Shown: positions 2,635 through 62,300 of the stretch, piece after piece
Position numbering within the stretch: position 1 is the first letter of the stretch
How the letters are laid out: each line of letters begins with the position of its first letter
Origin: Ulota crispa
Taxonomy: Eukaryota; Streptophyta; Bryopsida; Orthotrichales; Orthotrichaceae
Assembly: GCA_963920765.1 (NCBI GenBank)
Contig: OY987243.1
Location: 5,952,001 to 6,016,000 of the forward strand
Length of the DNA: 64,000 nucleotides
Direction of reading: 5' to 3'
Position numbers and translations under genes: made by a program
Notes under the pieces: generated by a model
What the model was told of the DNA's origin: nothing
The model's input: the letters and a program-made list of their open reading frames with translations, nothing else
The model's database searches: none

Positions 2635-4906
2635 ATGTCGCGGTTCTATCTTCGCGTAAGTGGATTTTCTCTAAACCTCTTAGGTTTTTTATTCCCTTCA
2701 AGCTTTAAATTTTAAAATTTGGTCGAGTTATGAACAAGTTTGAAATAAAATCGTCCCTGTTGCTTGTGCGCGGGCGAGGGTGGCTTTCAATCGAACCTCT
2801 GGAAGTATAACCGGCTGTAAAATTCCGAGTTTGATTTTTCCTTCATCAGTTGATAGATCTCGAAATTTGAGCTCGAATAGAATTCAAATGATGGTGTCGT
2901 GTTCGAAAATTTATACACCGAGAAGTGATAAATGTTGGCTGCGTGTTTTGTTACATGGCTCTTGCTTTGGAGCCTCCGATAATGAGCGTTCTTAAACGTT
3001 CGAATACTCGGTTACGAGAAAATTCGCATGCTAGTTATTTTGCGAAATATCGTTGAACTATGAGGAGTTACTGGTCTTTTAGGGTTTCTTTTTTCTCTAT
3101 TGTTGCAATTTGAGTTTAAGATAAAGCCCGTTTTGGAATGGTGCAGAAACCATTAGCTGGACTAACTTCATCAGTTACTCAAGGCCTCCGATGGCGTCTC
3201 TTTGATTGCAAGGGAGAGGTATGGTTCTCGTACACATCTTCAAGGGTTTATTGTAATGTTGAAGTCATTGATTGCAAGGGTGCTGTACTTTGAGTAAGGT
3301 AGCAGCACCCATAACCGTCAAATTAAGGTTTTTGAGCATGATGATAATTAATAAACATCTAGCAAATTATAGAATCCTGTTAGCAAGAAAAAAATGACAA
3401 GTTGGCACTTTCGAATGTATTATTTGGATACTCTGAGAATAAGTTGTGAATTTTTAAAGAGCCGACTGCAATTGCACCTAATACTAACACCAAGGTTTCA
3501 TGTTCACATGTTGTACATCCTTGCAATTACATCTATTCACTTCCATGGATTTTCCAAGATTTTCGATGTGATGGTTATGGGTACAGTGATGGTTGTGGGT
3601 GTTGGTACCTTACTTATAATTTATCTGTGATTGTCGAAGATATTTTTTTCGTGTGGAAATGGCCTTATGTCTTGCTGTAGTGACGTGGAGGTACTCTGCA
3701 GGTCCTAGGGAGGTTGGCGTCGAGGATAGCCGTGGTGCTACAGGGCAAAGACAAGCCCACTTACAGTCCCAACGAAGACAGGGGTGACATTTGTGTTGTT
3801 GTGAATGCGAAAAACATCACACTTACTGGAAATAAACTTACTGATAAAACGTATTATTGGCACACAGGGTACGCAGATGCATGTCCATCTTTCTTTCTAT
3901 CTTTACATTCAATCTGAAGCCTTTATAAAAGTAAATTTTTGACAGGTTATTAATGCTTTGCAGGCTTTTTAGGGGATATTTGCTTATTGAGAATATGCTG
4001 TGTCTGTGTTTGTTTCTGCGCAGCTACATAGGTCATCTTAAAGAGAGGACTGTTAAGGAACAAATGGTACGCGATTCGACTGAAGTGCTTCGTAAGGCTG
4101 TCCACCGAATGCTTCCTCGCAACAAGCTGCGTGATGTAAGTGTTTTCTTGAACTTGCTTGTTTGCTAAGGTAGATCAAACTATTATCAATTTGTCTGAGT
4201 GGACCACTATATGTAACGACAAAATCCTCCATTCTTCTTCAAAGATCTGTGACCTTAGACATTTAGCCAAGCTATGCTTACACTAATAATGTCAAAGCTA
4301 ACCAAATGTATGAATAGAAGAGTTGCTGTTGGTAACAGGGGTGAGTATAGGAGACGGGATCAAGCCCCGAAACGGTTTTAGTATCCTCAAATTAATTTAG
4401 AAATCCTGTGTTGCTGTGCACTCTGGCATTCTCATGATTCATAATCTGTAAAATTGAGTGGCTGTCAAGTCTTTATTTGGCATTATAGACCAGGTAATGG
4501 CCAAGACGTGAGCCCACGTGGCGATTCATCATGTCAATCCAGACTAGGACTATTTGTGTGCACGGCTGGAGCGAATCTAAGCAAGCCACGTTGTCAAAAT
4601 TTGTGCTGTTGACCTTTACGGCTTCTTCTGTCATTTTGGGTTCTTCACTCTTTCATGAATAGTTTTGTTTTGTTGAGAATTCCTTTTTTTGAAGAATTCA
4701 TATATTTATATTTTACTGTTTTGGTTACGCAGGATCGTATGTTGAAGTTACGTATTTTTCCAGAAGAAGAGCATCCGTTTCCTCCTGAGAAAATGGACAA
4801 ATTCGAGATGCCTCCACGCAAAGTGCGTGAGATGCGTCCTCGAGCTCGACGAGCAGCTCTCCGTGCTCAACCAACCTCCACTTTTCAGAAGGCCCAAGTC
4901 AGTTGA
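2635..4906 (+). CDS. mitochondrial ribosomal protein uL13 (L13), five exons
   Basis: Large-subunit ribosomal protein, predicted to work in the mitochondrial ribosome. Exons 2635-2655, 3147-3218, 3702-3868, 4024-4135 and 4733-4906 join in frame at GT-AG sites to give 181 residues. The protein carries the family run [18 protein letters not shown] (residues about 22-38), [31 protein letters not shown] and [15 protein letters not shown], and ends with the basic [15 protein letters not shown] typical of plant organellar L13. Length and ending match the plant mitochondrial form better than the plastid form, which has a long transit peptide. The seven-residue first exon starts at an ATG 11 bases past an in-context 'gaggagctgcg'; a short arginine-bearing N-terminus could act as targeting signal. 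A telo-box sits just upstream. The first exon is the least certain part. Confidence 0.93.
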
Positions 4907-5504
4907 TTGGTAGCTCCATAATATCTTTAGCCTTCAACAGGGGTGCGTGGTACTCAGTTTTTGGGAAGTCTAGCTCAAGTGCGCTGTGTCTAAAGCTCTT
5001 GCAGGATGACCACATGTTGCGTTCAGGCTCTCAATCCGAATTCACAAAATGTTGGGGAGGATGCTGAGATTAGTAACGGCCGTCTGATTTATATGGAGCT
5101 TCTTTGGCAGAAACGCCAATACTCTCTAAAAGATGAACGAGCCCTTTTGGGTATCAGATGAATTGGAGGTTTGATGCCGAAACCTTTGAGAGCACCAGTT
5201 TTACTTTTAAGTCCTGCAACCATCTGCAGTTTTTTCATAATCGCAGATATGTTTGATTGCTTGAAGAAGTGTATCCTTGTGATTATTGTACTTGGAATTA
5301 TGCTATTTGTTAGTTTTAAGTATAACTTTCTCACCATGTCACAGCTATGAGAATACATCCGCTTTTCTTAATAGAAATCGTCTTTTTTTAGTCACCGACA
5401 GTGCACTATTGCATTCATAGCGCTGCTCACGTAAGAGCTGGAAGTTCCGGCGCATGTTATCTAACAAGTATTCGTCTCATGTGAAAGCGTGTTATTATTC
5501 TTAG
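4907..5504. other. 3' flank of uL13 gene
   Basis: About 600 bases between the uL13 stop and the next repeat. It probably holds the 3' untranslated region. I see no convincing reading frame; the frames present on the minus strand lack any family signature. Confidence 0.4.
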
Positions 5505-5505
5505 G

Positions 5506-5800
5506 GAAATTTTCATGGATACCCCTGAAGTTTGCAATATTTTCATAGATGCCCCTGAAATTTGCAATATTTTCATAGATGCCCCTGAAATTTGCAATAT
5601 TTTCATAGATACCCCTGCTTTTTCAGAAATATCACAAATTCCCTTGGACCAAAGTTTGCAAGTTCTTGCTACAAATATCAAACATATAGAGTTGGTGATC
5701 TCAAATCTAATTCGGGTGCTCATTGTTGCGGCCACACTACTACCTTCTTCACACTTACTGTAGTTGCAAAACCTATACTTTGTTGCACAAAGCATTATGT
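5506..5800 (+). repeat. left-end fragment of GGGAAA-ended element with internal triplication
   Basis: Starts AGGGAAATTTTCATGGATA and matches the left half of the complete element at 57672-57982. A unit of about 33 bases containing 'GCAATATTTTCATAGATGC' is present three times in tandem here but once in the complete copy. I find no matching right end nearby, so the copy is truncated. It yields reading frames on both strands that are products of the repeat, not genes. Confidence 0.7.
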
Positions 5801-6154
5801 AAGAGACATGAATTGTGTTCACTTTTATTAAAATTAAAAAAAACAATACATTAAAACATTACTTATTGGTTCAAAAAAGATTCAAAAACAAAGAAAACAA
5901 AAAAATACAATCACTATGGCGTTGAGAGTAATGGTTTCACAAATTATGTTAATACTTAAAAAGATAATTAGATGAACTATATCAAAATTAACTATCTTCT
6001 AATCAAATCATATTCAAAAAAATACTATTCATTAATAGTGAACCTTGTACTAACTCTAGAATGAATAACAAAATTAAATAAATTACTTTTTGTAAAAATC
6101 GTGGAATAAACTTTATATGTGAATTATTCCTTTTATCATTATTAATAAGAAAAG

Positions 6155-41700: not shown

Positions 41701-42397
41701 GTCGGGCCTCATGTTTATTAGCTGTTTTGAGTATGTCATGCGGGATCTTCCGTTCGTCCAATTTTATTTGGTTTTGACCAATACATGCAATTTTCTTTAC
41801 TGATTCTGGCGATATAAAATTTTGGCCTCATCTAGATTATGTTTTTTGCTAATATTATCAAGAAAATTGGTCATTTTCTGTCGTGGATCCTTGGTCGTAC
41901 AAGGATAATATCTTAGTTCATGCTTTGAGTTTCATTCTCTCTGGTCATTTTGCGCTGCTTGTGTCCTGATCCTGCTGATAGTGCTTCTGTTTTGTCAACA
42001 GTTTCCAGTTGGGTTCTCTGTGATGATTGAGAAGAAATCACGGCGCATGGAACTTGCTCTCTACTGCTTGGCAAGGGCCATTGAAAGCTTTGCGATTTGT
42101 GTGGCCGATTGGGGAGTGTTGGAGCGCTACAACTTGATTCCTCCTAAACGATTAGACGTCTTCCTTTTCAGTGCAGCAACTGCTATTATCATGCATTGCT
42201 ATGCCCAAGAACGGGATGTTTTCCGGTCCAAGTATCTCAACGTTCTCGACTGGGTATTTGGTCTCCCGGACGGAGCTACGAAGTATACCCCTCCAGCTCG
42301 CACCTCATCTAATACAAGAGTATTATTACCAAAATCGAAATCAACCGTGGAGCTTTCCGACACGAAAGCAAGGGGCGGAATGGCTTCAGGAGTATGA
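38780..42397 (+). CDS. TMEM135-like membrane protein, eight exons
   Basis: Exons 38780-39216, 39641-39793, 40112-40339, 40501-40711, 40891-41027, 41197-41277, 41473-41539 and 42002-42397 join in phase to give 569 residues. The middle has a glycine-rich membrane region of the Tim17/TMEM135 kind (residues about 115-220). Next come QILSAWILKPSSLPKTYVSF and FLNKHGGKDV, and then the TMEM135 hallmark: a Cys/His region (IPCTMIHGEQGCVPH), a 'LPVYIPVYLVPALLVHR' helix, a hydrophobic block, and IEKKSRRMELALYCLARAIE at about 447-466. Human TMEM135 has the same order (HP..C, YAPLYLIAAILRKRK, IERKSRR). TMEM135 is a peroxisomal and mitochondrial membrane protein linked to lipid handling and organelle dynamics; its molecular activity is not settled. 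This protein is longer than the human one (458), with an extra polar N-terminus of about 110 residues. A partial TTAA element lies in intron 7. Confidence 0.85.
41673..41720 (+). mobile_element. left end of a TTAA element in TMEM135-like intron 7
   Basis: TTAACCCCTAAAGGACCAAG is the family B left end, located in intron 7 (41540-42001). No matching right end is found in the intron, so it is a fragment. Confidence 0.55.
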
Positions 42398-44880
42398 CTC
42401 ATCAACCGTTGTAATTCTTTTAGAATTTGTATGTGGCTATAGGGCGGTAAAAGTCTTTGCTGCATTACAAAGCATTACTTTATTTCAAGATTTTGGTGCC
42501 AGAGAAACCTCAATTTTATGCTCACCACGAGTTTGCAGTTATTGCTTGTACTCTCCATGATTCTAGATCCAGGTGTGCTGGATCGATTGATATGGTATTC
42601 TCGTGCTGTCCAGCGGTGTGTAGATTTGCAGTTGCCCTTTATTTTCACTTTACTCGGAGAGAATAACTTTGGTTTCAGTGCATAAGTTGAATGGTTTCAA
42701 TTTGATGTTTCCTATATGGTTCGAGTTCATGATCTTGCTTCTATGTCCTTGGGCCTCGTGCATGCTGACAGTCCGTCTCCGTATTGAGGTGAATGAATTG
42801 CTTCGTTTTGACTTAGCATATCCTGGTTTCTGTTTGTGTCGAAGTTCTGAACATGTGATCTTTTATTTCCCTGTTTTGGCATCAATCCAAACTGAGCCCG
42901 TAACACGGCACTGCAGATCTGGAGATCTGGTGAAGATGGTGATTCAAGAAAAGGTGAGACCCAATACATCTCTCCAAGCACATGCAATCTTCCGTTTGTC
43001 TGTTAATGGGGTACCTGCAATTGCTATCTTAATTTCAACCTCGCCGTGATAATAGAATTCCGTTTGGTATAATACGTTTTTGCATTTGGTTCATAACGTT
43101 CTTGTGAACCTGCCCTAACTCTATTGGAAAGGAATCCGACCATTCTTATAGTGCGCAGTCTTGAGGTCACGTCAGCCGGGACTAAAGCTGTCGGAGGAGG
43201 ATAGGTACGGGCCCCTCATTGAGCGCCATGCATGCTTCCTGCAGGGAATGTCAATATTATCTTTTTTTCCGGTTGCTATACAAATTTTGAATGGAAAAGG
43301 ACTCACAACCTCCAAGAAATAGTTCTTATACGATGTCGCTTTTTACAAGTCTTGGGACCTTAACCCCTTGCAAAAATTGTTCATTCTCGAAATTCGTAGA
43401 TGGCTAGGGTTTGACTAGTCGTGATCGAAACGGCTTTAGCTGAGCAGTGAGAATTTGTGGGAGGGCTTTGGGGCCTACCTTGACTTGGTACACGACTGGC
43501 GCCACGCTACTAACTAGGTCGTACAGCAGGACTATTCGCTGGGGATTCAAGCGGCAGAGTCGATCAGAACAGCCATCTGTCACGACGATTGGCACTGTCA
43601 AGGATTGATCTAGAACTCATGGATTCAGACGACGCCGGACACGAAACGTTACAGAGAGACCTGTCAATGAGCCTCGACGTCACAAGGACGCAGTACTTGA
43701 ATGCTATTGCCGCAAAAATGGGACGAAGTAGTGGACATCATCCTGAAACCGTGACCGTTTCATTATCGCAGCCTTAAGTTGTCACCTCCTGCTTAGGACA
43801 CTTCCTTGAGAGAAATTTGCGAACTTCAATGCAAGAAGCAAAAGTGTTCTACATCAGTTTCTAGACCTAGATGTACTGATGCTGGTGCATGGTCTGAGAC
43901 TTTTTGCGGGTCGATTTCGGTGGTGAAATCTGTGACCTAGTACCGTACAGATTCTAGCACTGTAAGCGAATATTGTTGGTATCATTAATTGGACGGCAAA
44001 TCGTGATTACACTCGACAGCCTTTCGTACAGGTGCTACTAGATGGTGCATCAGTAGCACTGCAAACTGAACGGTGTGCTTGTCCCAACTCAGAAGGCAAT
44101 GGCGACGTGAGAGGTTGCTTTAATCTGCCAGAGTTCATTGTGCAGGGGATCATCGTCACAATATCCGGGAGGATGGTGCTCTCATCGAGTAGGCAAGACG
44201 TACTGATCTGATGCTCTAGCTCATATCTCTTGCGAGAAACGTCCTTGCCATCGACAGTGGCTGTATTCAGCTGGACAGGGCTGGACTTGGCGGAGCAGAA
44301 GAGCTGGTGTAGGTGTTCTTTGCAACCTGGTCACCGCTGTATGCATGAGAGTGAGTTTTCGCCAAGTTCACCGTGCCGATCTCATTGACCTTGTGCTATT
44401 CTGAGGGCCTGCAAAACCAAGAAAATCCGTACAATCCGCAAGTATTATTCTGGGCGGCAGTTTATTTTGTTTTGATTTGTTTGTCTTGATTATGGGCACG
44501 TGACGATCAGGAAAGATCTAAGCAAAGACAGGTGCGTGGGCTTGGATTCGCAGTATTTGAACTTATAGCTGACAAGTTATTGAATTTCAAAGTTGCTCTG
44601 CGTAGTTGTGCTTACGGTCACCACCTTGCTATTCTCTTCCGCAGATTTTACAAGTGCAGACTTGGAACGCAAGCATTTTCCATCGCTCTTATTCTGGCGT
44701 TTGGTTGCAACTGATTAATACAGAGGAGGTTTTTGGAGTTAGGGTGCATGCCGATGCTTGGGGATGCAAAGGCAAAGGGTCTGATATAGCAGGAGGATTA
44801 AGCATCCGCCAATTTGAGGCAACCATGGCGAGAGGCTTGTAAATCCAACCAATAGTGTGTGTTGTTCGTACTGCTCTGAA
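42398..44880. other. intergenic region between TMEM135-like and SDP1-like genes
   Basis: About 2.5 kb with base composition close to the neighbouring genes and few simple repeats. It presumably holds the TMEM135-like 3' end and the SDP1-like promoter and leader. Frames at 42669-43049, 43589-43777 and 44606-44842 have no recognisable domain, although undetected 5' exons of the downstream gene could lie here. Confidence 0.4.
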
Positions 44881-47800
44881 ATGAGCACGATGTCTAACAT
44901 TTTGGAGTTACCTGGAACTAGGAACACAACTTCAGCTATGAGCGTTGTGGTACAGTTTGTGAGCCAGCACCTAGAGGTGGCCAATCTGGGATGGGACGTG
45001 GCAACTGGCATCTACCACGCCCTTCTCGTGTACGCACTAAACAAGTATGGCTTGCACATTTGGCTTCGTATTTGCAGTCGGTCGGACGTAAGCATTCCAT
45101 GGTGGAAGAGCCTGGGTACAAATCAAGCTACTCGCCCTACAGAGGGGGACGAGGTGCTGCTTCGGAAGCTTGAATTCTTGGCTCAGAAAGGTTGGCTTGG
45201 AACTGGAGATGCAACCCCAGCTCCAGCTCCGGTGATGGCTCGGGCGATGGCAGACGGTGACGATGAGGGTTTTCCGCGAGGGATGCCCATCAGCCATTCC
45301 CTTTCCTGTTCCATGGTGCTCGCCTTCCAATATGTGCTTTCAGATGAGCAGATCTACCATTGGGCTGATAAAATGCGCACGGTGTTTGGGTCGACGCCAC
45401 GAGTCGAGAGGTTTGAGCGCTCTACCGTTGTGCAGACACGCGCTTGGACTCACGAAGGCCTGTTGCACAACGCTGCAGCTCTGTTACGGCAAGTGTGTGA
45501 GGAAAATCCTTGGTGTACGTTGCAGGTGGCCTCATGGGCCGTCTTCCTTTGCGAAGTCACAGGTATACATTCTTTAAAAAATCGCCGTTATGTTTTTGTT
45601 TTTGGCAGTCCTGAGTATGTCACATCGGGACTGTTTTTTGTTTTTCTATTAATTAAAGTTTTTGGAATTGGTCATTTTTATACCATGAATCCATATCGAA
45701 GCTCATTCGGAGTCTTGAATTCAAGTACTAAATCCCATAGATGGGGCTTTGTCAAAATTAAGTAACGCTTGGGATGTAGGCGGCATTTTACAAATGGCTG
45801 AACTTTCTGGACATGTTGCCTAGATCACTCTTGGAAAGTCTGATGGATCAAAGCGCAGGGACTTCAACAGGAGAAGTGAAGCTTGTTAAGCTTCAGGACC
45901 TGCATGTACCAGTCATCAAGAGCGCCAGCCAATCTTCAGCTGGTAATTGCTTGATTCTCGGTTGTACGCATTGTGATTCCAGCGCTGGCTTTCTTCAGCT
46001 AAGCCCTGATAAATCTGTCCGTGCTGTTCTCCACCTCAGAGTCCTTGCTGGTACTGATCTACTCGTGCTCCAGTTGACATGCTGGATATTAGGGGACGTC
46101 ACCTGGCTGCCACAGATCTGATTGCGCAAACTTGTGACCAAAGTATGAGACTCTTGTCTAAATCAAAATTATCTCGGGTGAGCCTTTGCAAAACACTTTA
46201 CCCACAGTCTTCACTTCCTGATTAGAGATAAAGGAATTTTGAAAGACGAAGTTTAGAACGAGGAGTACTGGATTTACTAGAACACAAGCTGGGGTATGTT
46301 CAAGTGAAGTTAACTCGAATGCTTTAGGCTGATAAACTTCGACAAGCTGGAACTGAAGAGTCTTGAATCGTAGTGCCGCGGGTTAAGCCTCGAATTGAAA
46401 GCTGTTGTGTCCGTGAACAGGATTCAGAAGGACTGGAAGCGCTCTCTGTAGCATGCCCTCCAAATGCAATTCATCAAGGTTTGCACGTGTATGCTTCGAA
46501 GACAGTTGTAGTCAATGGCTTCTTGATGTCTGTTCAATGTGAACGTATCAAAGTATTCTCCACGAGTGACGATTCCTCTGCTACCGGTAATACTGCCGCA
46601 ACCCAGAATGAATCACGCAGCAGTTTCAAGTGATCAAATTGAAGTAAACCTCTTCCTTGCTGCTAGTTTGTTACGTAGACCTAGTTAAAAACTTACTCCT
46701 CGATGTTACAATTGAGAATTGTTATTTAAAAGGCAAAATTTGTTCAGTCCCACTTGCGAGGATGTTTTGAGATGCCTGTCTCCTGTAACATTCCTTGAAT
46801 GCTTGATGAGCGTGGAGATTATAGTCAATTTTCTTCTGTTCTGAGGACTCGTCTTCTGCTTGTCCAAAGTGGACATAAAAAATCCAGTATTGAAGCTTAT
46901 ATTCGAGTATAGTAACTTCCAAAACACAGTATTTCATCGTTAAAAATCTAATTTATGATTTCTCCTTTCTATCAGTACATTTAACTTTTGTCTTTCGGTC
47001 CTCCTTCGGGATTAATGGAAAGAGATGTTGCTGACCTTATATCGTTTTTGTTCACAGATTCGATAACCTGGATTTTGGCATCACTTATTATGGCAGTACC
47101 TGTTACTCAAATTGCATTGGTATTGCTGTATCCATCGTCCGGGTCCATTCTATCAATCCTAGTAGGCCAAGGCGTTGGTTGGATGTTGGTTTGGTGCATG
47201 CGGCGATTGCTTACATCCAGGTGTGTGTCGAGTTTCAAACTTCTAAAAAGATCGAAATTTTATTGTTTTGAAGTAACCAATTTTTATTGATCAAAGAAAT
47301 TAAAAAATATTATTATCCAAATGAAGCCCAATTTAGTATCACCAGAAGTCAGCGAAAGCCATTGCATGCGTTGGTCACTACATAAACCAAGTTGGACAAA
47401 GCAAAGTCCTTCGCAAAACTGCTAAAAAACGTGAGGCTCAATTCTGATTCTTTTGCCCTTCTGCAGTTCTACATAGGACCAGTATACCAGGATGAGGTTT
47501 TTGATGCGCCGCAGATTGCATGATAAGCTCAAGTATTGTACATGTGCTAACACCACAATTCGTGTATAATTTTGACTTGCAAGAGGGGAGTAGGGGCTAT
47601 ATTAGCTGGACACAAAGTTAATTAATTTGGAAGTTCTCAGCGACTTCGGCATGGTCTTCAGCAGTTAGCAAAACCAAATTCTAAATTAATCCTAGTTTTG
47701 GAGTTATACAGATGAACTGCCAGTTTAATAACTTTTTCAGCGCTAAGAATAATCTGAGTGTCGCTATTTTGCTCTATTCTTACTGACTAAGCTAGCTTTA

Positions 47801-50800
47801 ATACCATATAGGAACGCAAGAAATCAACGAAAGGCGCCAAAACCAAGTGAGAAGGATCTCTCTAAGGTGAGATGCTAGTTTACCATTCAATTTGGAGAAT
47901 GCGAGTCATTGAACGATTGCTCTGTCTAGTTTTTATGATCAGTCTTAAAATAATAAGATTTAATGCACCCAAATATGTATTTTTTTCATTTCTACATCTG
48001 GTTATTTTGCTCCTACCGAAAGAGTGGGTCTCAAAAACGGATTTGTTGCTCTCACTTGTATAAAATGTTATGTAATTTTTTGGTTTGCAGAAACTGGAAA
48101 TAAGATCGAGTTGGAATTGGAAGCCTTACCTTCAATATCTTCGGCGAGGGAGCTGGTTGACACTACTAGTCCTTTTGATAGCACTGTCTCATTGGCTGTG
48201 GATTCACACGGAGCGAGTTCAGAAGAAATGGCTACTCGTGGGGGCAACGGCAGCCATAAGTTTTGTTACAATCTTAAAGCTGCGAGCGAAATGGCGAAAA
48301 ACCAAAGAGGCAGGCACAGTGTCTCGCTGCAGATACTGGAGGGGTTTAATGAGCACGGCAACTACGTACAACGATTGGTCTCATGCAGCCAGCATGCTGT
48401 TGCTCGAGAGGGGTGTTCATGAAACAAAGCTTTACGATGAGGCATACGTCCGGAGAAAACTCCGGGACCTGCAACAGCGGCGCAAGAAAGGGACTACTGA
48501 TGATATTCTCTTCTGCTCGCGCGCTGACCTCATCCGGCACCTCGGACACATGGGTAATCCCGACCTTCACAAGCACAGGGGTTCAGTTCCAGTGATCATT
48601 CGGGACTACATCAACGAAGTCAGGTGTGCTATAAAATAAATGGTGCCTTTCTCATGCAAATGTTTGATATTCAGCATGTGTTTTCTTCGACTTTGATCGT
48701 TTTTCAACATAAAGTTTTGGTCTTTGGAATAATATTTTTTATCAAAATGAACTCAACAACCGATTGTTCTTCTCTGTTGCTTCAACTCTAATCATGCGAC
48801 ATTGCGAAGTAAGTTGTCAAAACTGCAATCTATGTTAAACTGGATTTCCCATATTTTTTTGTACCTTTTGATGAAAATGTAAGTTGAAAACTGTATAATG
48901 TGTCTTGAAAACATATATCTGAAAAATTCTAAACAAAAAATCATGATTGAATAAGATTCACGAGGAATAGGTTTGTTGACTTCATTAATGGACTTGTTAT
49001 TAAAGTACTTGTCACTAGAATATAATCGAATCTCTTTCTTTCTAACTCCAAATCCATTGAAACAAAGTGCCTTAGAAAGTCAACTTGAAGTTATATGTTT
49101 CTACAGGCTGTACTTTCGAAGTCTTCTATTTTGTATCTATTTTAAACTCAAATTCTCGTCGGAGATTCTCGATTTGGGCTCCTAAAACGCGTTATTCGTT
49201 AAATTGGGAAACACGGGTGTCCCATTTTGTACCCACCTTAAACCCAAAAAGTTACCTTAAACCAGATTCGAAGGTATCAAATTCTGTCTGAGCCACTAAG
49301 ATTTTTTCCCTCGCAAATTCCTCCTCTCAGGTGAGGCCAGGCCACGTGGACCGGTTTTAGGAGTACTCCTGAAAGTTAACTAAAATCTTCAAAAATCCAA
49401 GAGTCCCACTTTGTAAGCAAATTCCCAAATTAACGAATAACGCGTTCTAACCTCCTAGGACTCTGGTTAATTACGGTCTCTATGGATACTTTCCGATCAT
49501 GGATGTAATGGTAAGTATGAACGGATCTGTTCTGGTGGTCAATGCACTGCTATTTCTATGAGCTCAGGCTAAATTGTTTTTTTGACATTGCAGAACCCAA
49601 ATTCAAGCAGTATGCGAAATGGATGCAGAAGAATTCAGTCTAGAAGAGAAGCTAACCTTTTTAACCGAGACACGGCAAAGGTTTGGAAGGACAGCCCTGG
49701 TGTTCAGTGGCCATGTTGCGCTGGGAGCATTTCACTCATCCGTGTTTCGGACTCTAGTGGAGCACCAGGTGCTTCCCAGTGTGATCGTGGGCGCAAGCCT
49801 GGGTGCAATTGTGGCCTCGTTTGCAACGTCTCGGACTGCCTCCGAGCTTTTACACTTCTTCGACGATCCGTCACTCCCAACGGACTTCTACGCGAAGCTG
49901 AGCTCAGTTTACGTGGCAGCGTATCGGTTACGAACGCAAAATGCTAGCCTGTATGAAATTGAGAAGCTTGAGCAAAGCATGCAGGAGCTCTTGGGAGATC
50001 TTACTTTCGAAGAGGCTTACGACTTGTCTAATCGCGTCTTGGGAATTTCAGTTCCTGCGTGCCCTCTCGGTCACCAGCCCGCCCAATTTTTGAACTATTT
50101 GGCGACTCCTCATGTTGTAATCTGGAGTGCTGTCGCTGTCTCGTGTGTGCCACCTTCTGGCCTTCTTCACCGACCTGAGATCATGATCAAGGATCGCTAC
50201 GACCGGATTGTTCCGCACGTTCCACCGACAAAAGTGAGTCTTCTTATCAGGCATTTTCGTTGATATGAAAGCAAATTCATTGTTAAAGCATAAGTCTCAA
50301 GATGTTGCATAAGCGGTTTAGCCAATATGTCGGTATATGTGCTTGCATCGGGACATCACCATAGAGCTTACTGTAGATACCAGTTTTAGTATAAGAACGA
50401 AGTTTTCTCTGATCAAATTGTCTTATCACTCAATATATGATAAGTGCTTACGTGCAATCCTTCATTGTCGGAGGTTGTACACCATTTCTGAGTACTTAAC
50501 ATAGTGTTTACTAATGGTTCTAGTATCCTCTTCAATCTTTATGACCCGGTAGTAGAACCGGGTTTTGGTAATTTCATGTTTCAGGGCATCGTAACACTAT
50601 TTCTTCTTTTGAGGAGCATTTTCTATGTTCATTGCGAACGCAGATGAGCTTTGGGAAGGCAGGAAGCGAAACAAGCTTAGAAACGGAGATCCCCTTTCAA
50701 CAGATTCGGGAGCTTTTTAATGTCAACCATTTCATCGTCAGTCAGGCCAGTTCTTATATAGCGCCGTGGTTGCATTTCAAGGAGTCAATTCAAGACCGCT

Positions 50801-52322
50801 CGTCTCTCTCTGCCAGGGTTAGAACCCGCCGCCCACGCTTTTCATGCACGTATTCATTTACTCGTAGAAACTCCCTTCGCTGCAAAAATCTAATTGCATC
50901 AAACCCTTCTAAATATAAATCAGTTGCCAACGTAAATCTTGTCCATTGTCTTCAGGCTACGTTCTAGAACACCTCCGTGGGTTGAGTTCTCTTTCTTGCT
51001 CCCGGACCTTCGCCAAAGTCAGGTTTGTAATGAATACTGTACGGGCTACTGTAGGGTTCCCTTCTGCACCAAGTTAAGGTTGTGGCTCCACATTTACTAA
51101 CTTTGATCGCCGTTGGATGAAATGAGTGCCGACAGCTTCTGAGTTTGATGGAGGCGGAAGTTAGACATCGTTGCGCTCAACTGTTAGAAATGGGAGTCAG
51201 GCTGCGAGGATTTACAAGCCTCTGTTCTCAGAAGTGGGAAGGGGATGTCAATATTATCTTGCCAATCACGTTTTCTCAGGTGGTGCATTAATGCTACGAT
51301 TGCAAGCTGGTTACAAGTCATGTCTTAAACCGTATTTGCAAATAGAAAGCCAACCAAGTGTATTGGAAGAGATAAGTTGCTGCTGGTAATGTATCCTCTA
51401 CCTTATGATTGGCACGCTCGAGGGATGTGAAACCGGCTATTCCACTACTCTATCAACTCTTCTTGCTGAACATGCACTTACCAGTGTTGTTATTTGTATG
51501 TAGGCCATCTTCACCTTCCGTGAGAACCATTCAGCGAGTGAGCTAAGGAAGACCGCCATGGCAGGGCGTCGCTGCACATGGGCCAAATTGTCAGCCGTTC
51601 ACGCAAGCTGTGGAATAGAGCTCATGCTGGACGAATATATCAACGAGCTTCAACGACGAAAACATCACGCTTTTCAACAGGAACACGATTCCCACGGCCA
51701 TGCTTCGCTGCAAAGAACCACCACAAACCGGTCAATATCCGCTGCGGGACACGGCACTTGCACCACAGGTGAGCTTCCATTTGAACAAATTACTCCAGGA
51801 TATGGCGTACCAAGCGAAGCCGAGACTGAGGATTACTTGCTTGACCACCTCTGTTCCTGCACAAGCAATAGCACCCCGGAGTCTCGCCGATATAATGTAG
51901 CCCACGTTGTCTCCCATCAAGTTCAGCTTGTGGAAGAATGTGACACCATAGATGATATCCATGGAGCGGTATTGTCGTCACCGTTCGATGACACAGCTTG
52001 GCCAGGCGAGTGGGGAGATTTTCAAGCAGTCGAGGAGCAGGAGGCTCCGAGTTCGCCAATACTTGGTGCTGAAAGCGTCTGTGAACAGTTATATAGGCTA
52101 CACAGTAAAGAACTGCAGGTGGACTGGGACATAGGGTGTGAAGATCATACAGAGAGCTATGGCTCGCCGACCACGGTGATTGATGGTCCCAGTGGGCAGA
52201 CCCCTTCGCATTCCAGGAAGAATAGTGACCGAGTCTCTCATCCAGGTTGTACGTTACAAAGCTATTTTGAGGAAATTTCCAACTCTTCGTACAATCTAGA
52301 TGAGCGAGACGATGATATTTAG
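44881..52322 (+). CDS. SDP1-like patatin protein with unfamiliar N-terminal extension, eight exons
   Basis: Exons 44881-45562, 47058-47220, 47812-47866, 48091-48623, 49594-50233, 50644-50817, 51136-51279 and 51504-52322 join in phase to 1069 residues. Residues 1-227 are unrecognised; 229-280 and 322-364 hold about four membrane helices. From about 380 it follows plant SUGAR-DEPENDENT1, the oil-body triacylglycerol lipase: the DUF3336-type region (STATTYNDWSHAA, YDEAYVRRKLRDL, ADLIRHLGHMGNPDLHKHRG), then the patatin core (LEEKLTFLTETRQRFGRTAL), TPHVVIWSAV, ELFNVNHFIVSQ, EVRHRC, GRRCTW and CGIEL. The nucleophile elbow GASLG is present (Ser546). The oxyanion stretch reads SGHVALGAF where SDP1 has a second glycine, and the expected catalytic Asp (RDGSLE in SDP1) aligns with ETSLE (Glu700). 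It may be a weak or inactive lipase. Exon 1 is joined by phase only; an alternative is two separate genes. Confidence 0.78.
49186..49446. mobile_element. family C MITE, copy 3, in SDP1-like intron 4
   Basis: A 261-bp element with ends AACGCGTTATTCGTTAAATT and the complement of AACGCGTTATTCGTTAATTT. It lies wholly within the intron 48624-49593. Non-coding; related to the copies at 11868, 21561 and 53837. Confidence 0.8.
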
Positions 52323-53113
52323 ACTACGCCCGGCTGGTTGCAGTCACGTCAACAGAATCCTACGAAGAAATACTCTGCAGGTTTGGTCCCTGAGTTCCCC
52401 AAGTTCTGTACCATCCACTTGCCAGAAAATCTTTCATTTATCCGGATTCAGAGTCTCGGCAACAAGATCTTCCAAATCAAGCAGAACTTGGAGTCTTGGA
52501 GGCCAAATCAGTATGAAGTTTTTGCTGATATGGAGAATGTGGAAGGTCAACACTCAACAGTTCTCGAGAAACCCGGCGTCAAGGATGTTGAGCTTTCTAA
52601 ATACGAACCGATCGGTCTATCATGAGTATAACACGAAACACCGAACGCATCAAAACGAAGACATCCCACCTCTAAGGCAATATTCCATATCCTCCACCGA
52701 GGACTTATACGGAGGGTCACCACCGAGGCTGGATTTGAACGATGCAAGGACTATAAAAGCACCACGGCTCTGATGCCACAAACATTGCTTGTCAGTGTAC
52801 CAGCGGTTTGAGTTTGTGTGAGAGCAAAAGAAGCGGAGCTACAGTGATTCACACTGGAAGGGGCACCAAATGCTTTGTACCAAGGTAGGCTGGATTTCCC
52901 CGTCCTCACCAGGGCTTGCAAGGATTCACTGTGGTTACGAAAATCGTATACCTCTGTTGCTAGTTAAGATTCCTTTACGCTGCTCTAGATTGTCCATTAC
53001 CGATTTACCGTGTGCATGCTTGCTACTACTATTGCAGTGGTTCCTTTATCAGGTTGATTATTGCGAAGTTATCAAAACTCTCAGGGACCATCATTTCAGG
53101 CAGATATCGTAGC

Positions 53114-53566
53114 ATGGACGAAAGTTTGAAGTCGACCTGGTCAGAAGTCCCTGGAGCTCAGTCGGAGATGCCGGTGCCGATGCCGGCGTTGGCATGCCTC
53201 ATCTGCTTGAGACGCATCCCCACCCATCCTGTTTTAACTGTCTGTGGACACGTCTTCTGTTGGCCGTGCCTGTATCGATCATGGCCGCAGGAGGGGCTCG
53301 AAATCACACAACCATGCCCGGCTTGTGGAACTGTTTTAGCGGAAGGGGTCGACATCGATCCCCTCTTCGGCATCGAAGGCTCATCGCCGAGTTCGCCGAG
53401 ATCTGGAACTGAAGGGTCAATCACTGGCCATGCAACGGCTGCGTCCGACATCGCCATTCCTCCCCGTCCCAGTCCTGGACCACTACGGATTGGTCGGGGG
53501 CCCACACATCGTAACCCGTCTCCTGCTCGTAATGTGAGGCCACGATCCGCCCACTCGGCATCCTGA
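53114..53566 (+). CDS. RING-HC finger protein (RMA/RNF5-like E3 ligase domain)
   Basis: A single-exon frame of 150 residues. A C3HC4 RING occupies residues 28-71: C28LIC31, C44GH46VFC49WPC52, C68PAC71, with the LTVCGHVFCWPCLY signature shared by plant RMA and animal RNF5/RNF185 ligases, which act with E2 enzymes in ubiquitin transfer. Those relatives end in a membrane anchor for the endoplasmic reticulum. Here the tail (72-150) is Pro/Ser/Arg-rich with no hydrophobic segment, so either the protein is soluble or a further exon exists. The ATG follows an acceptor-like CAG, so a leader intron is possible. A 15-bp repeat downstream (53723-53783) begins right after 'cctttcag', which could be a distal exon. 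Confidence 0.78.
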   Translation: MDESLKSTWSEVPGAQSEMPVPMPALACLICLRRIPTHPVLTVCGHVFCWPCLYRSWPQEGLEITQPCPACGTVLAEGVDIDPLFGIEGSSPSSPRSGTEGSITGHATAASDIAIPPRPSPGPLRIGRGPTHRNPSPARNVRPRSAHSAS

Positions 53567-55443: not shown

Positions 55444-55850
55444 TGTTTAATAGAATTTCTTTTAATTGCTTATGTATTTTGTTATTATTTTAAATATGAT
55501 AATCCATTTATTCCACTAAAAGAAGACTATAATTGGATTACTTTTTTTTAAATTTTCATTGGAGAATAGGAGTTGATGGTCTTTCAATTGGACATATTTT
55601 TTTTAACAAGTTTTATTTCTACTCTAGCTAAAAATTACTACTTTAGCTATTTTAGCTGCTTGGCTTGTTACTCAAAATCTATGATTATTCTACTTTTTAA
55701 TGCTTGCAATGTATAGTAGTCAAGTACGATTATTTGCTTCTCAAGATATTCTACTTTTATTTTTCATGTGGGAATTGGAATTAATTCCAATTTATTTAAT
55801 TTACTTCTTTTGTCTCTGTTTGTCTAGTAAGTTTCTCAATCAAGCATGCA
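55444..55850 (+). pseudogene. ndhD: nuclear insertion of plastid ndhD (NUPT), decayed fragment
   Basis: Conceptual translation gives stretches close to plastid NdhD, subunit 4 of the NADH dehydrogenase-like complex: LIEFLLIAYVFCYYFKYDN, PFIPLKEDYNWITFF, FHWRIGVDGLSIG, and [12 protein letters not shown]-type text to [19 protein letters not shown]. The pieces fall in different frames and the C-terminal two thirds are missing, so it is a pseudogene. Low GC fits plastid origin. It shows that the host line has, or had, a plastid ndhD. I could not recognise further plastid genes in the following 600 bases, although their composition is similar. Confidence 0.88.
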
Positions 55851-57045
55851 TTTTTATCATTACGCTCTACAACTATCATAATATTAGCTCAAACCTACCT
55901 TTGCACACCTCTGTTACTCTTTGAGCAATTATGTTAATTCACTTTGCAACATACTTGTTGTTGTGTTTGATTCAATTGAAATGCTCACTTTAGAATTTCT
56001 ATTTTTTTCTTCTCGAGTCTTTTAGTTTATTTTTTCATGCATGCTATAAATTCTATTCTTCTTTATAGATCATTACAACTTCAACGCTCGTACAAATCTA
56101 TTGATGGTTCCATTACCAAGGTCTAAACATTACTTTGTAAGTTGAATTGAATTTTCTTTTGCCAATTAGGTCCTATCCCCAATGTGAGTGAAACTAGTAA
56201 CAAGACTTGATCCTTGCTCGCCTATAAACATCCTACACGTTGGATATTACAAAAATAATTTTCAACAAGCATGGCCCTTATAAAGGAAGGGATATGTTTT
56301 TGTGCGAGTCAATTTCAATTAAAGTAGTTGAACAATTGAGTACGGGATTTTCATCCACGTAAAAAGGCAATTATTGTTTGTAGCTCTTTCCATTCATGTT
56401 AGTATATCTTAAAATCGTCCAGCTTGCATACGTAATTGATACTTGATGAGAGGTTTCATAGAAATTTAACTTCTCCCTAAATAATCACCTCAGTCTACAG
56501 TACAAAGGCCAAAGTCAACTGTAAAGTTGATTAATAATTTTGCATGATTTGATGACAATCTAAAAATAGGAAAACAGTGGTAGCAAACTAAAAAACAAAA
56601 ATTGTAAAAAGTAAAAGAACTTTGCAACGTTGGATCCGTGTGGGAAGGTTTTAATCCTTTGGGATCAGTCTTTGAGGAGTTTTTAAACAAACGCATAATT
56701 TCTCATTTAATCTTTGAGAAAATGAGCTAGTGTTCATTCTCTATATGTTACAAAATCACAATAATCTTATTATTTCACAAAACAGTTCAGAAAGTGAAAG
56801 ACTGAAATTTAATTATTCATGTTAGTAAGAGGTTTTTATCAATTGATCAATTATATTATGGCTTAATTTTATGTTGGGTTGATGATTTGACCTAGAACTC
56901 ATTGACACAAATTTTAAGTCTATAAAAGTCAAATTCATTCCTCAATATTCTTTTCATTGTCCCTGCACTTTCTAAAGAAACTATCACTTTTATTGCATTT
57001 CTTATTTTAACATTGGTTATGAAAGTAGTAGTGTGCATGATAAAA
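55850..57045. other. AT-rich stretch, possibly more organelle-derived DNA
   Basis: About 1.2 kb with composition like the ndhD insert but no gene that I recognise. Confidence 0.35.
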
Positions 57046-59326: not shown

Positions 59327-62300
59327 ATGGCGACCTCCTTGCATCTCTCCTTGGCTGCTGCCGCGCCCACCTCGGCCTCCACCTTGAGGAGCGCTTCGGC
59401 GTTCGGTGGAGGCGCTGCTGGTAGTTTGGCGCGCCCAATGTCAACCGGAGCAAGACACAGGCGGAGTGTGAACCTGGTAGTGCAAGCGAAGATCCGGGAG
59501 ATTTTCATGCCGGCATTGAGCTCAACAATGACGGAGGGCAAGATCGTGTCGTGGGTCAAAAATGAGGGCGACAAGCTTAACAAAGGTACTGGCATTGCCC
59601 CTAGGGTTTAACTAAGTCCTGTCTTGAGTTCGTCGCATTGGGACTGGCCTTTGGTTGCTTGATACGGATTCAGTGCTGTTAGGGTTCATTGCATTGGAAA
59701 TGGAGTTGGGTTGCATTGGAAATGGAGTTGGGTTGCATTGGAAATGGAGTTGGGTTGCATTGGAAATGGAGTTGGGTTGCATTGGAAATGGAGTTGGGTT
59801 GCCTTGGAAATGGAGTTTGGTTGCATTGGAATTGGAGTTCGGTTGCATTAGAAATGGAGTTGGGTTGCCTTGGGAATGGAGTTCAGTTGCCTTGGAAATG
59901 GAGTTCAGTTGCATTGGGGTTTAGTACTGCTGAGCTCGTTGCGAAGATGATGATCAGGGGTGATTGGATTGAAGAGGAATGGGGAGCTGAGGTGGAGTGT
60001 TAACGAGCGAGGTTGTGGTTTTCAGGTGAGAGCGTGGTGGTGGTGGAATCCGACAAGGCCGACATGGACGTGGAGACATTCTACGACGGGTTCCTGGCCA
60101 AGATTGTGATTCCCGAGGGCGAGACAGCACCTGTTGGAGCTGCCATTGGATTGCTGGCGGAAACGGAGGAAGAGATTGCAGAAGCCAAGGCCAAAGGTGG
60201 AGCCCCTGCTGCTGCTGCTGCAAAACCTTCCTCTCCCGTGGAGGAGAAGGCTGTTGCTCCTCCTGCTGCACCTGCCACTCCCTCTCCTGTTGCGTCTGTT
60301 GTGATCGCTCCTGAGCCGGTTTCAAGGTCCGGCAGGATTGTTGCTACACCGTATGCGAAGAAGCTTGCGAAGCAGTTCAACGTCGATCTCGGCACTGTCG
60401 ATGGCTCTGGACCCTCCGGTCGCATCACTGCCACCGATGTCGAATCTGCTGCTGGCAAGACCCCCGCTCCAGCCGCTGCATCAGTTGCTGCTCCGGTTCC
60501 TGTACCGGCTGCCGCTGCTGCTGCCGCCCCTGCACCTGCCCCTGTACCTGCCTCGGTTCCTGCTCCTGCTGGCTCCGTGGCGTTCACGTCGATGCAGGCT
60601 GGAGTTGCTCGCAACATGGTCGACAGTTTGACCGTTCCCACGTTCCATGTTGGTTATACCATTACTACTGACGCACTTGACGCCTTGTACAAGAAGGTCT
60701 GTCATTCTTCTCCCTCTGTCTTCTTTTCTGGACGACGCTATTTCGTGATCGTAAAATAGTGAGCGGTGAGCCAAGATTTGGTGAGCAAGAATCAATTTTG
60801 AGCTCAAAAGAGTAATTTTTTCAAAAGATAAAAGTTTAAAATGCACAATTATAGGGTCCTATGTATACGGTTATACTTGAAATTGAGTATTTTGACAAAA
60901 AATCTAGGCTCACGGCTCACGAATCCCCGCTCACGATATAGCATTCCCCGTCTTCTTCTTCCTTTTTGATCTTTCAGTACTTTCTCAATAAATTTCCGTT
61001 GCTCATTAATCACAGGTTACGTTCACTAACTGTATTTTTGAGTCAGGGATTTCGAAAGTTTCATCTTTATCTTGCTGACTTGCTATTTAGGGTGTGCAGC
61101 TAATTTTTATTCTGATTAGCTATCAACACCTAACATTGAGAGGTTATGACGATGTTTAGTAATAGTACTTGCTGGAATTATCCTTTGGCAACGACTTGTA
61201 CCACACTGACTTGTTGCGTGGCGGTTTTGTTGTGAAAAACAGATCAAGCCGAAGGGCGTGACAATGACAGCGCTTTTAGCGAAGGCTTGTGCTCTCGCTT
61301 TGGCCAAGCATCCTGTTGTGAATGCGTCCTGCAAGGATGGGAAGAGTTTTAGCTACAACGAATATATCAACGTTGCTGTTGCCGTTGCAATGGACGGTGG
61401 TTTGCTCACACCAGTTTTGAAGAATGCCGATAAGGTACATGTTTTTGTGTCCATCAACATTCTGATGTATTCTAAGCTTTTCCATATTCAGTAATGACAT
61501 CTGCTAGTATTTAGCCAATGTTGTTTGCAATGTTTTTTGAAGTTCTGGATGGTAGATTCCTGGACGACGTATTGATCTTTTAATGATTTAGCCGTTGAAG
61601 TTGCACGTTTTCAGACGAGTTAACGTTGTGTTTCGGCTACTTTTTATCATTTCGCAGGTGGATATTTACTCTTTGTCTCGCAACTGGAAGGGTCTTGTTG
61701 ACAAGGCCCGCGCAAAGCAACTTTCACCAGCGGATTATAATACAGGTTTGACATCTACACCATGTTTTTTATTAGCTATTTTCTTGTGAATGCAGCCCAT
61801 TCCTGTTGTCAGGATGCTTGAATGTGAGTGACATTACCGTGCAGGAATTCTGGTCTAGTGTCTACAAAACAAATCATCTTTTGAAGCACCTAGAGTGAAG
61901 TTTTCATGTTTTTCTTGAGGTTCACTGAGTTAGTTCACGTAAATGTCTTGCCTCTGATTCTGAATCGTTGATGCATTTGGTTGCAGGCACATTTGTATTG
62001 TCTAACCTTGGAATGTTTGGCGTGGACCGATTTGATGCCATTCTGCCCAATGGCATTGTAAGTAAATCCTCTGGCATCGTTTTGTGTTATAGCGTAGCCT
62101 TGAAATCTCCGTTCCTCCTTGCCTTTGTCTAATCTTTGGAGGAAGAATTCATAGCAGATATGGAACTGAGGTGTATTAGACGAGTGCTTAAATATCAGTT
62201 CCTAAAATTGTGTCAGAGGGGTTTGTATTCATATTGAGATGATTTTTCACATGCTGTACTTTGAACAGGGTGCCATCATGGCAGTCGGAGCATCTACTCC

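Follow-up and report, generated by a model that had tools for sequence, protein, structure and literature searches.

The SDP1-type gene and its surroundings

The window analysed here is a stretch of 64,000 nucleotides (C2:5952001-6016000, contig OY987243.1) in the 275-Mb genome of Ulota crispa. On its forward strand lies a multi-exon gene of the SDP1 (SUGAR-DEPENDENT1) type, with a DUF3336 and a patatin domain (Table 1). SDP1 is the main lipase starting oil breakdown in plants. Both domains score over the cut-off: DUF3336 (PF11815) reaches 54.9 bits (E 9.9e-15) in the open reading frame (ORF) 48076-48636, and patatin (PF01734) 46.7 bits (E 5.4e-12) in the spliced core, while a Pfam search with exon 7 returned no match. 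The region 49594-50817, on which the first-pass annotation had centred, consists of two complete exons and the intron between them, with AG/GT borders.

Table 1. Features of the SDP1-type gene in the window
Feature	Position	Strand	Evidence
Candidate exon 1	47015..47220	+	ATG start, hydrophobic N-terminus MERDVADLISFLFTDSITWIL, GT donor, phase fits next exon; provisional
Candidate exon 2	47812..47866	+	AG/GT borders, phase fits; provisional
Exon 3, hydrophobic segments and DUF3336	48091..48623	+	PF11815; position and phase of downstream intron as in paralogue
Exon 4, patatin, altered oxyanion loop and nucleophile Ser	49594..50233	+	PF01734 in spliced core; paralogue alignment
Oxyanion-loop stretch SGHVALGAF (paralogue SGGAALGAF)	49706..49732	+	Codon-by-codon comparison
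Nucleophile Ser codon AGC in GASLG	49796..49798	+	Codon-by-codon comparison
Exon 5, segment expected to bear the catalytic Asp: KAGSETSLETEIP, then ELFNVNHFIVSQ	50644..50817	+	Paralogue alignment
Glu-Thr codons replacing catalytic Asp-Gly	50668..50673	+	Codon pairs against paralogue; Glu codon GAA at 50668-50670, in SETSLETEIP
Exon 6, conserved C-terminal part EAEVRHRC...KWEGDV	51136..51279	+	144 bases and phase equal to paralogue exon
Exon 7, GRRCTWAKLSA...CGIELMLDE, then diverged C-terminal tail and stop codon	51504..52322	+	Paralogue alignment

The complete gene model encodes 856 residues, with no stop, no frame break and AG/GT borders throughout. Exons 3 to 7 are backed by homology with a paralogue described below and have compatible phases; only the 5' border of exon 3 is without a counterpart, the corresponding part of the paralogue sitting in its start exon. 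Concerning the two upstream exons, which bear little likeness to the paralogue N-terminus, we consider it likely that they belong to the gene and keep them as provisional. As a control, devised once the chain had been noticed, 46900-48090 was resampled 200 times with a Markov model, and two of these copies yielded a two-exon chain of at least 80 codons. A hydropathy scan of the N-terminus gave four hydrophobic segments (8-30, 32-51, 107-125 and 135-153), the first two of which depend on a provisional exon, versus a single one (75-94) in the paralogue, and the window protein is possibly membrane-anchored. At the other end, alignment showed that the paralogue tail motifs RRIPSWNxxARENS and SWTRxGGPLMRT, both conserved in Arabidopsis, are absent from the window tail.

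Several other features were recorded in the neighbourhood. A RING finger ORF lies directly 3' of the gene (52964-53566, forward strand; PF14634, E 8.7e-7), and lipoyl and E3-binding domains of a 2-oxoacid dehydrogenase E2 are found at 60004-60759 (forward strand; PF00364, PF02817). A short ORF at 55685-55924 (forward strand) matches the ndhD-like NAD(P)H-quinone oxidoreductase subunit 4 over 41 residues (NF002713, E 7.5e-14), far under the whole-protein family cut-off, and may be plastid DNA that has entered the nuclear genome. The ORFs upstream of the SDP1-type gene (41909-45765, forward strand) are what we take to be reminiscent of TMEM135; two of them were tested and had no Pfam or NCBIfam match.

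A canonical paralogue and the altered active site

The first-pass annotation had suggested looking for a second, canonical SDP1 gene, and one is indeed present on the minus strand of the same contig (C2:23719125-23723979). It has five exons and an intact site: SGGAALGAF, GASVGS and RRWRDGSLESDLP (RRWRDG). Four introns are common to the two genes, at equal positions and phases, and for this reason a retrocopy origin of the window gene was rejected; the window gene has in addition introns in its N-terminal part that the paralogue lacks. We regard the window gene as an SDP1 paralogue by descent, derived from an old duplication at the DNA level. It resembles SDP1 and SDP1-like proteins in its DUF3336 and patatin domains, its GRRCTWxKLSA block, its GxSxG serine and the four introns in common with the canonical copy of its own genome, and it differs from them in having neither Asp-Gly nor RRWR, in reading SGH for SGG, in a tail that cannot be aligned and in its more numerous hydrophobic N-terminal segments.

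A search of the whole genome, in which counts for large families are lower bounds, found DUF3336 at two places, and all eight protein matches fell within those two; among the matches listed there is one SDP1-type gene besides the window copy. Manual grouping of the patatin matches, at least 14, gave 11 gene places. The exon carrying the catalytic Asp was seen in 10 of these, and D-G is kept in nine (seven DGG, one DGR and one DGS, the last being canonical SDP1), the window gene being the sole exception; the eleventh place (L005) is matched in its N-terminal part only.

We compared the two copies codon by codon. The nucleophile serine is kept in GASLG, as had been claimed from the sequence, but the number 546 given to it was not reproduced, and in the 856-residue model it is Ser333. 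The SGHVALGAF reading of the oxyanion stretch also held: the glycine-rich loop SGGxxLG is replaced by SGHVALG, with Gly to His (GGA to CAT) and Ala to Val. The proposed change of the dyad Asp to Glu was confirmed (GAC to GAA, one base) and turned out to be part of a wider one, since the following Gly has become Thr (GGC to ACA) and the RRWRDG block of the paralogue is wholly replaced by KAGSET, with KAGS standing for RRWR. In the alignment, KAGSETSLETEIP of the window protein faces RRWRDGSLESDLP, and close behind the acid position all 12 residues of ELFNVNHFIVSQ are identical between the copies. A sequencing error is unlikely, because several of the replacements involve more than one base.

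The relevant passages of PMC12871566 describe the patatin mechanism as a combination of a glycine-rich loop, GxSxG and DGA/G. Two catalytic features of Ser-Asp patatin lipases are thus lacking in the window protein, and, judging from this mechanism, ordinary Ser-Asp hydrolysis of oil should have been lost. It could be argued that the gene encodes an ordinary lipase whose true D-G exon was overlooked, as exon 5 has 10 fewer residues before the acid than the corresponding paralogue exon (Glu is residue 9, Asp residue 19). However, the alternative exon that the first-pass annotation had proposed to look for between 50234 and 50643 was not found: the stretch of the exon 4-exon 5 intron scanned from 50234 holds no D-G in its three forward frames, and a hidden exon was rejected on this ground. 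Moreover the exon with the Glu is in the correct phase, and SLExxxP follows this residue without a gap. This explanation we hold to be scarcely credible.

Another explanation is that the protein is a working enzyme of changed chemistry, in which Ser333 is activated by Glu487 or by another acid, giving a slow hydrolase or an acyltransferase that acts on another lipid. The kept GxSxG serine is in line with it, and so is the fact that Asp has given way to Glu, the closest acidic residue, in a position aligned without gaps; as for precedents, the part of PMC10211241 considered here reports migrated catalytic residues in some proteins scored as pseudoenzymes. Against it stands the replacement of the Gly after the acid, of the RRWR block and of the second oxyanion Gly, together with the retention of D-G in all nine other patatin genes whose Asp exon was seen. 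The string HX4D is an acyltransferase motif from the yeast TGL literature. It occurs once in the window protein (HMGNPD) and never in the paralogue, but as an acyltransferase motif this single occurrence was judged a matter of chance. We therefore rate changed chemistry as rather improbable. Structural data add little here, AlphaFold giving for the window protein alone a model of no use (mean pLDDT 39) and the search of solved structures matching PlpD (5fqu) as its single distinct sequence, with 54 query residues aligned (E 7.9e-4).

Age of the pair, past selection and relaxation

The two copies form an old pair, as estimated from their divergence. Over the core, 253 of 481 codon pairs encode the same residue, and the differences at codon positions 1, 2 and 3 number 176, 132 and 285; of 117 fourfold sites, 72 differ, a distance of 1.28 (about 1.3). 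The statement that the protein follows SDP1 closely around the active site is accordingly generous. Since synonymous change is saturated over the core and several segments, the pairwise omega of the codon model was set aside, even if on the core a free omega beats an omega of 1 (2dlnL 180.7, dS saturated), and the estimate was based instead on fourfold and second positions, bootstrapped. Half of the fourfold distance (0.64) was assigned to the window branch, as both copies share one genome, which holds if both mutate alike and gene conversion is absent. With all of the second-position change (0.34) put on that branch, the ratio is 0.53, a conservative upper bound; its bootstrap 95% interval is 0.32-0.79 and none of 2000 replicates reaches 1 (the fourfold distance was infinite in 2 of the 2000). 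By part, the upper bound is 0.47 for the patatin exons, 0.24 for the C-terminal block and 0.99 for DUF3336, so that for DUF3336 alone constraint is not demonstrated.

We also simulated neutral evolution of the frame. At 10% substitutions the probability of finding no stop over the core is 0.006-0.013, with substitutions only and no indels, and over 769 codons the frame stayed free of stops in 6.5% of runs at 3% and in 1.4% at 5% substitutions. The third-position GC of the window copy is 0.52 versus 0.36-0.46 in four introns. Because the branch ratio stays below 1 even at its upper bound, and because a frame that had long been neutral would hardly have stayed open, we conclude that purifying selection kept the window frame for most of its history. 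This agrees with the earlier observation that the exons are open, all of them being free of stops. Function may nevertheless have been lost very recently, at a time corresponding to about the final few percent of neutral divergence.

To place the changes, a provisional Arabidopsis SDP1 sequence was used as outgroup. Over the 467 columns aligned free of gaps, the window copy carries 130 changes found in neither other sequence, against 26 for the paralogue. To read this as a fivefold higher rate, one has to assume that the copies duplicated after the divergence from Arabidopsis, and three sequences do not suffice to decide this. Of the 337 sites common to the paralogue and this outgroup, the window copy has lost 134 (four of them as gaps): 7 of 12 in the active site and 127 of the 325 conserved sites elsewhere, a difference short of significance (p=0.23). 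As the losses are spread over the whole protein and the active site is not singled out, the window copy is relaxed throughout, with the catalytic loss as one part of this general relaxation. The genome profile search, which is independent of this outgroup, agrees with relaxation, the window copy scoring lower than the paralogue for both DUF3336 (56.7 versus 82.6 bits) and patatin (47.7 versus 78.3 bits).

These data bear on the possibility that we are looking at a dying gene: a duplicate on which selection has been strongly relaxed and whose function was recently lost altogether, the catalytic changes being part of general decay. The asymmetry of unique changes, the even spread of losses and the weaker profile scores all speak for it, as do the lower third-position GC (0.52 versus 0.67 in the paralogue) and the start exons that scarcely resemble the paralogue. 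On the other hand, the 856-codon model is intact, including its splice borders, stop-free frames were infrequent in the neutral simulations, the branch ratio bound is below 1, and the multi-base changes of the active site suggest that they are not recent. Weighing both sides, we consider decay unlikely. The first-pass idea of a retained role rather than decay is thus supported in part, by the open frame and by past selection, and weakened by the excess of changes and by active-site losses that do not stand out.

A possible non-catalytic role beside SDP1

The explanation that we somewhat favour is that the window gene is a retained SDP1 pseudoenzyme, acting by binding and not by hydrolysis. In its favour, the replacements take in Asp-Gly, RRWR and the second oxyanion Gly and yet leave the neighbouring ELFNVNHFIVSQ intact. 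An old SDP1 duplicate would have kept its domains and the nucleophile serine, but not its oxyanion loop or the Asp that serves as base. The protein is probably still made, since selection preserved the reading frame and the splice sites, both undamaged, for most of the history of the gene. The genome retains an intact canonical SDP1, and therefore the lipase activity of the window copy can, as far as gene content indicates, be spared. Such a pseudoenzyme could still dock at the membranes or partners used by SDP1, perhaps held at the membrane by its extra hydrophobic N-terminal segments, and could tune lipolysis by competing or pairing with active SDP1.

We propose this regulatory step, as the likeliest mechanism, by analogy with PNPLA3 (adiponutrin), a patatin paralogue that stands beside the main oil lipase ATGL and that, in the portion of PMC8907745 on which we rely, competes with ATGL for the co-activator CGI-58 in animals. 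The function is reported for PNPLA3 and only inferred for the window protein. PNPLA3 belongs to another patatin subfamily than SDP1. Plants also have lipase-like proteins that work without hydrolysis, EDS1 and PAD4, to which the window protein can be likened in being lipase-like and proposedly non-hydrolytic; these have an alpha/beta-hydrolase fold, whereas the window protein is a patatin. A further-reaching version, a lineage-wide, membrane-anchored regulatory SDP1 pseudolipase (the plant counterpart of PNPLA3), or else a Ser-Glu patatin with new acyl-transfer chemistry, is doubtful.

No SDP1 pseudoenzyme was found among the top-ranked papers. The SDP1 passages considered here describe catalytic members only; one such member, from an alga and equipped with both Ser and Asp, is reported to have made the Arabidopsis sdp1 sdp1-L mutant grow better (PMC5461629). 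If true, a kept and catalytically altered SDP1 copy would point to a non-catalytic control layer in plant lipolysis; a merely fading duplicate would be ordinary.

In the search for outgroups, none of 8 pattern stretches was confirmed in viral contigs and none of 34 in prokaryotic genome contigs. As regards the canonical gene, one of its introns (L019, about 3750-3900, minus strand) carries repeated units gatacccctgaagtttgcaa, spotted by eye, and an ORF on the minus strand of the window (5457-5858) translates a repeat that looks similar.
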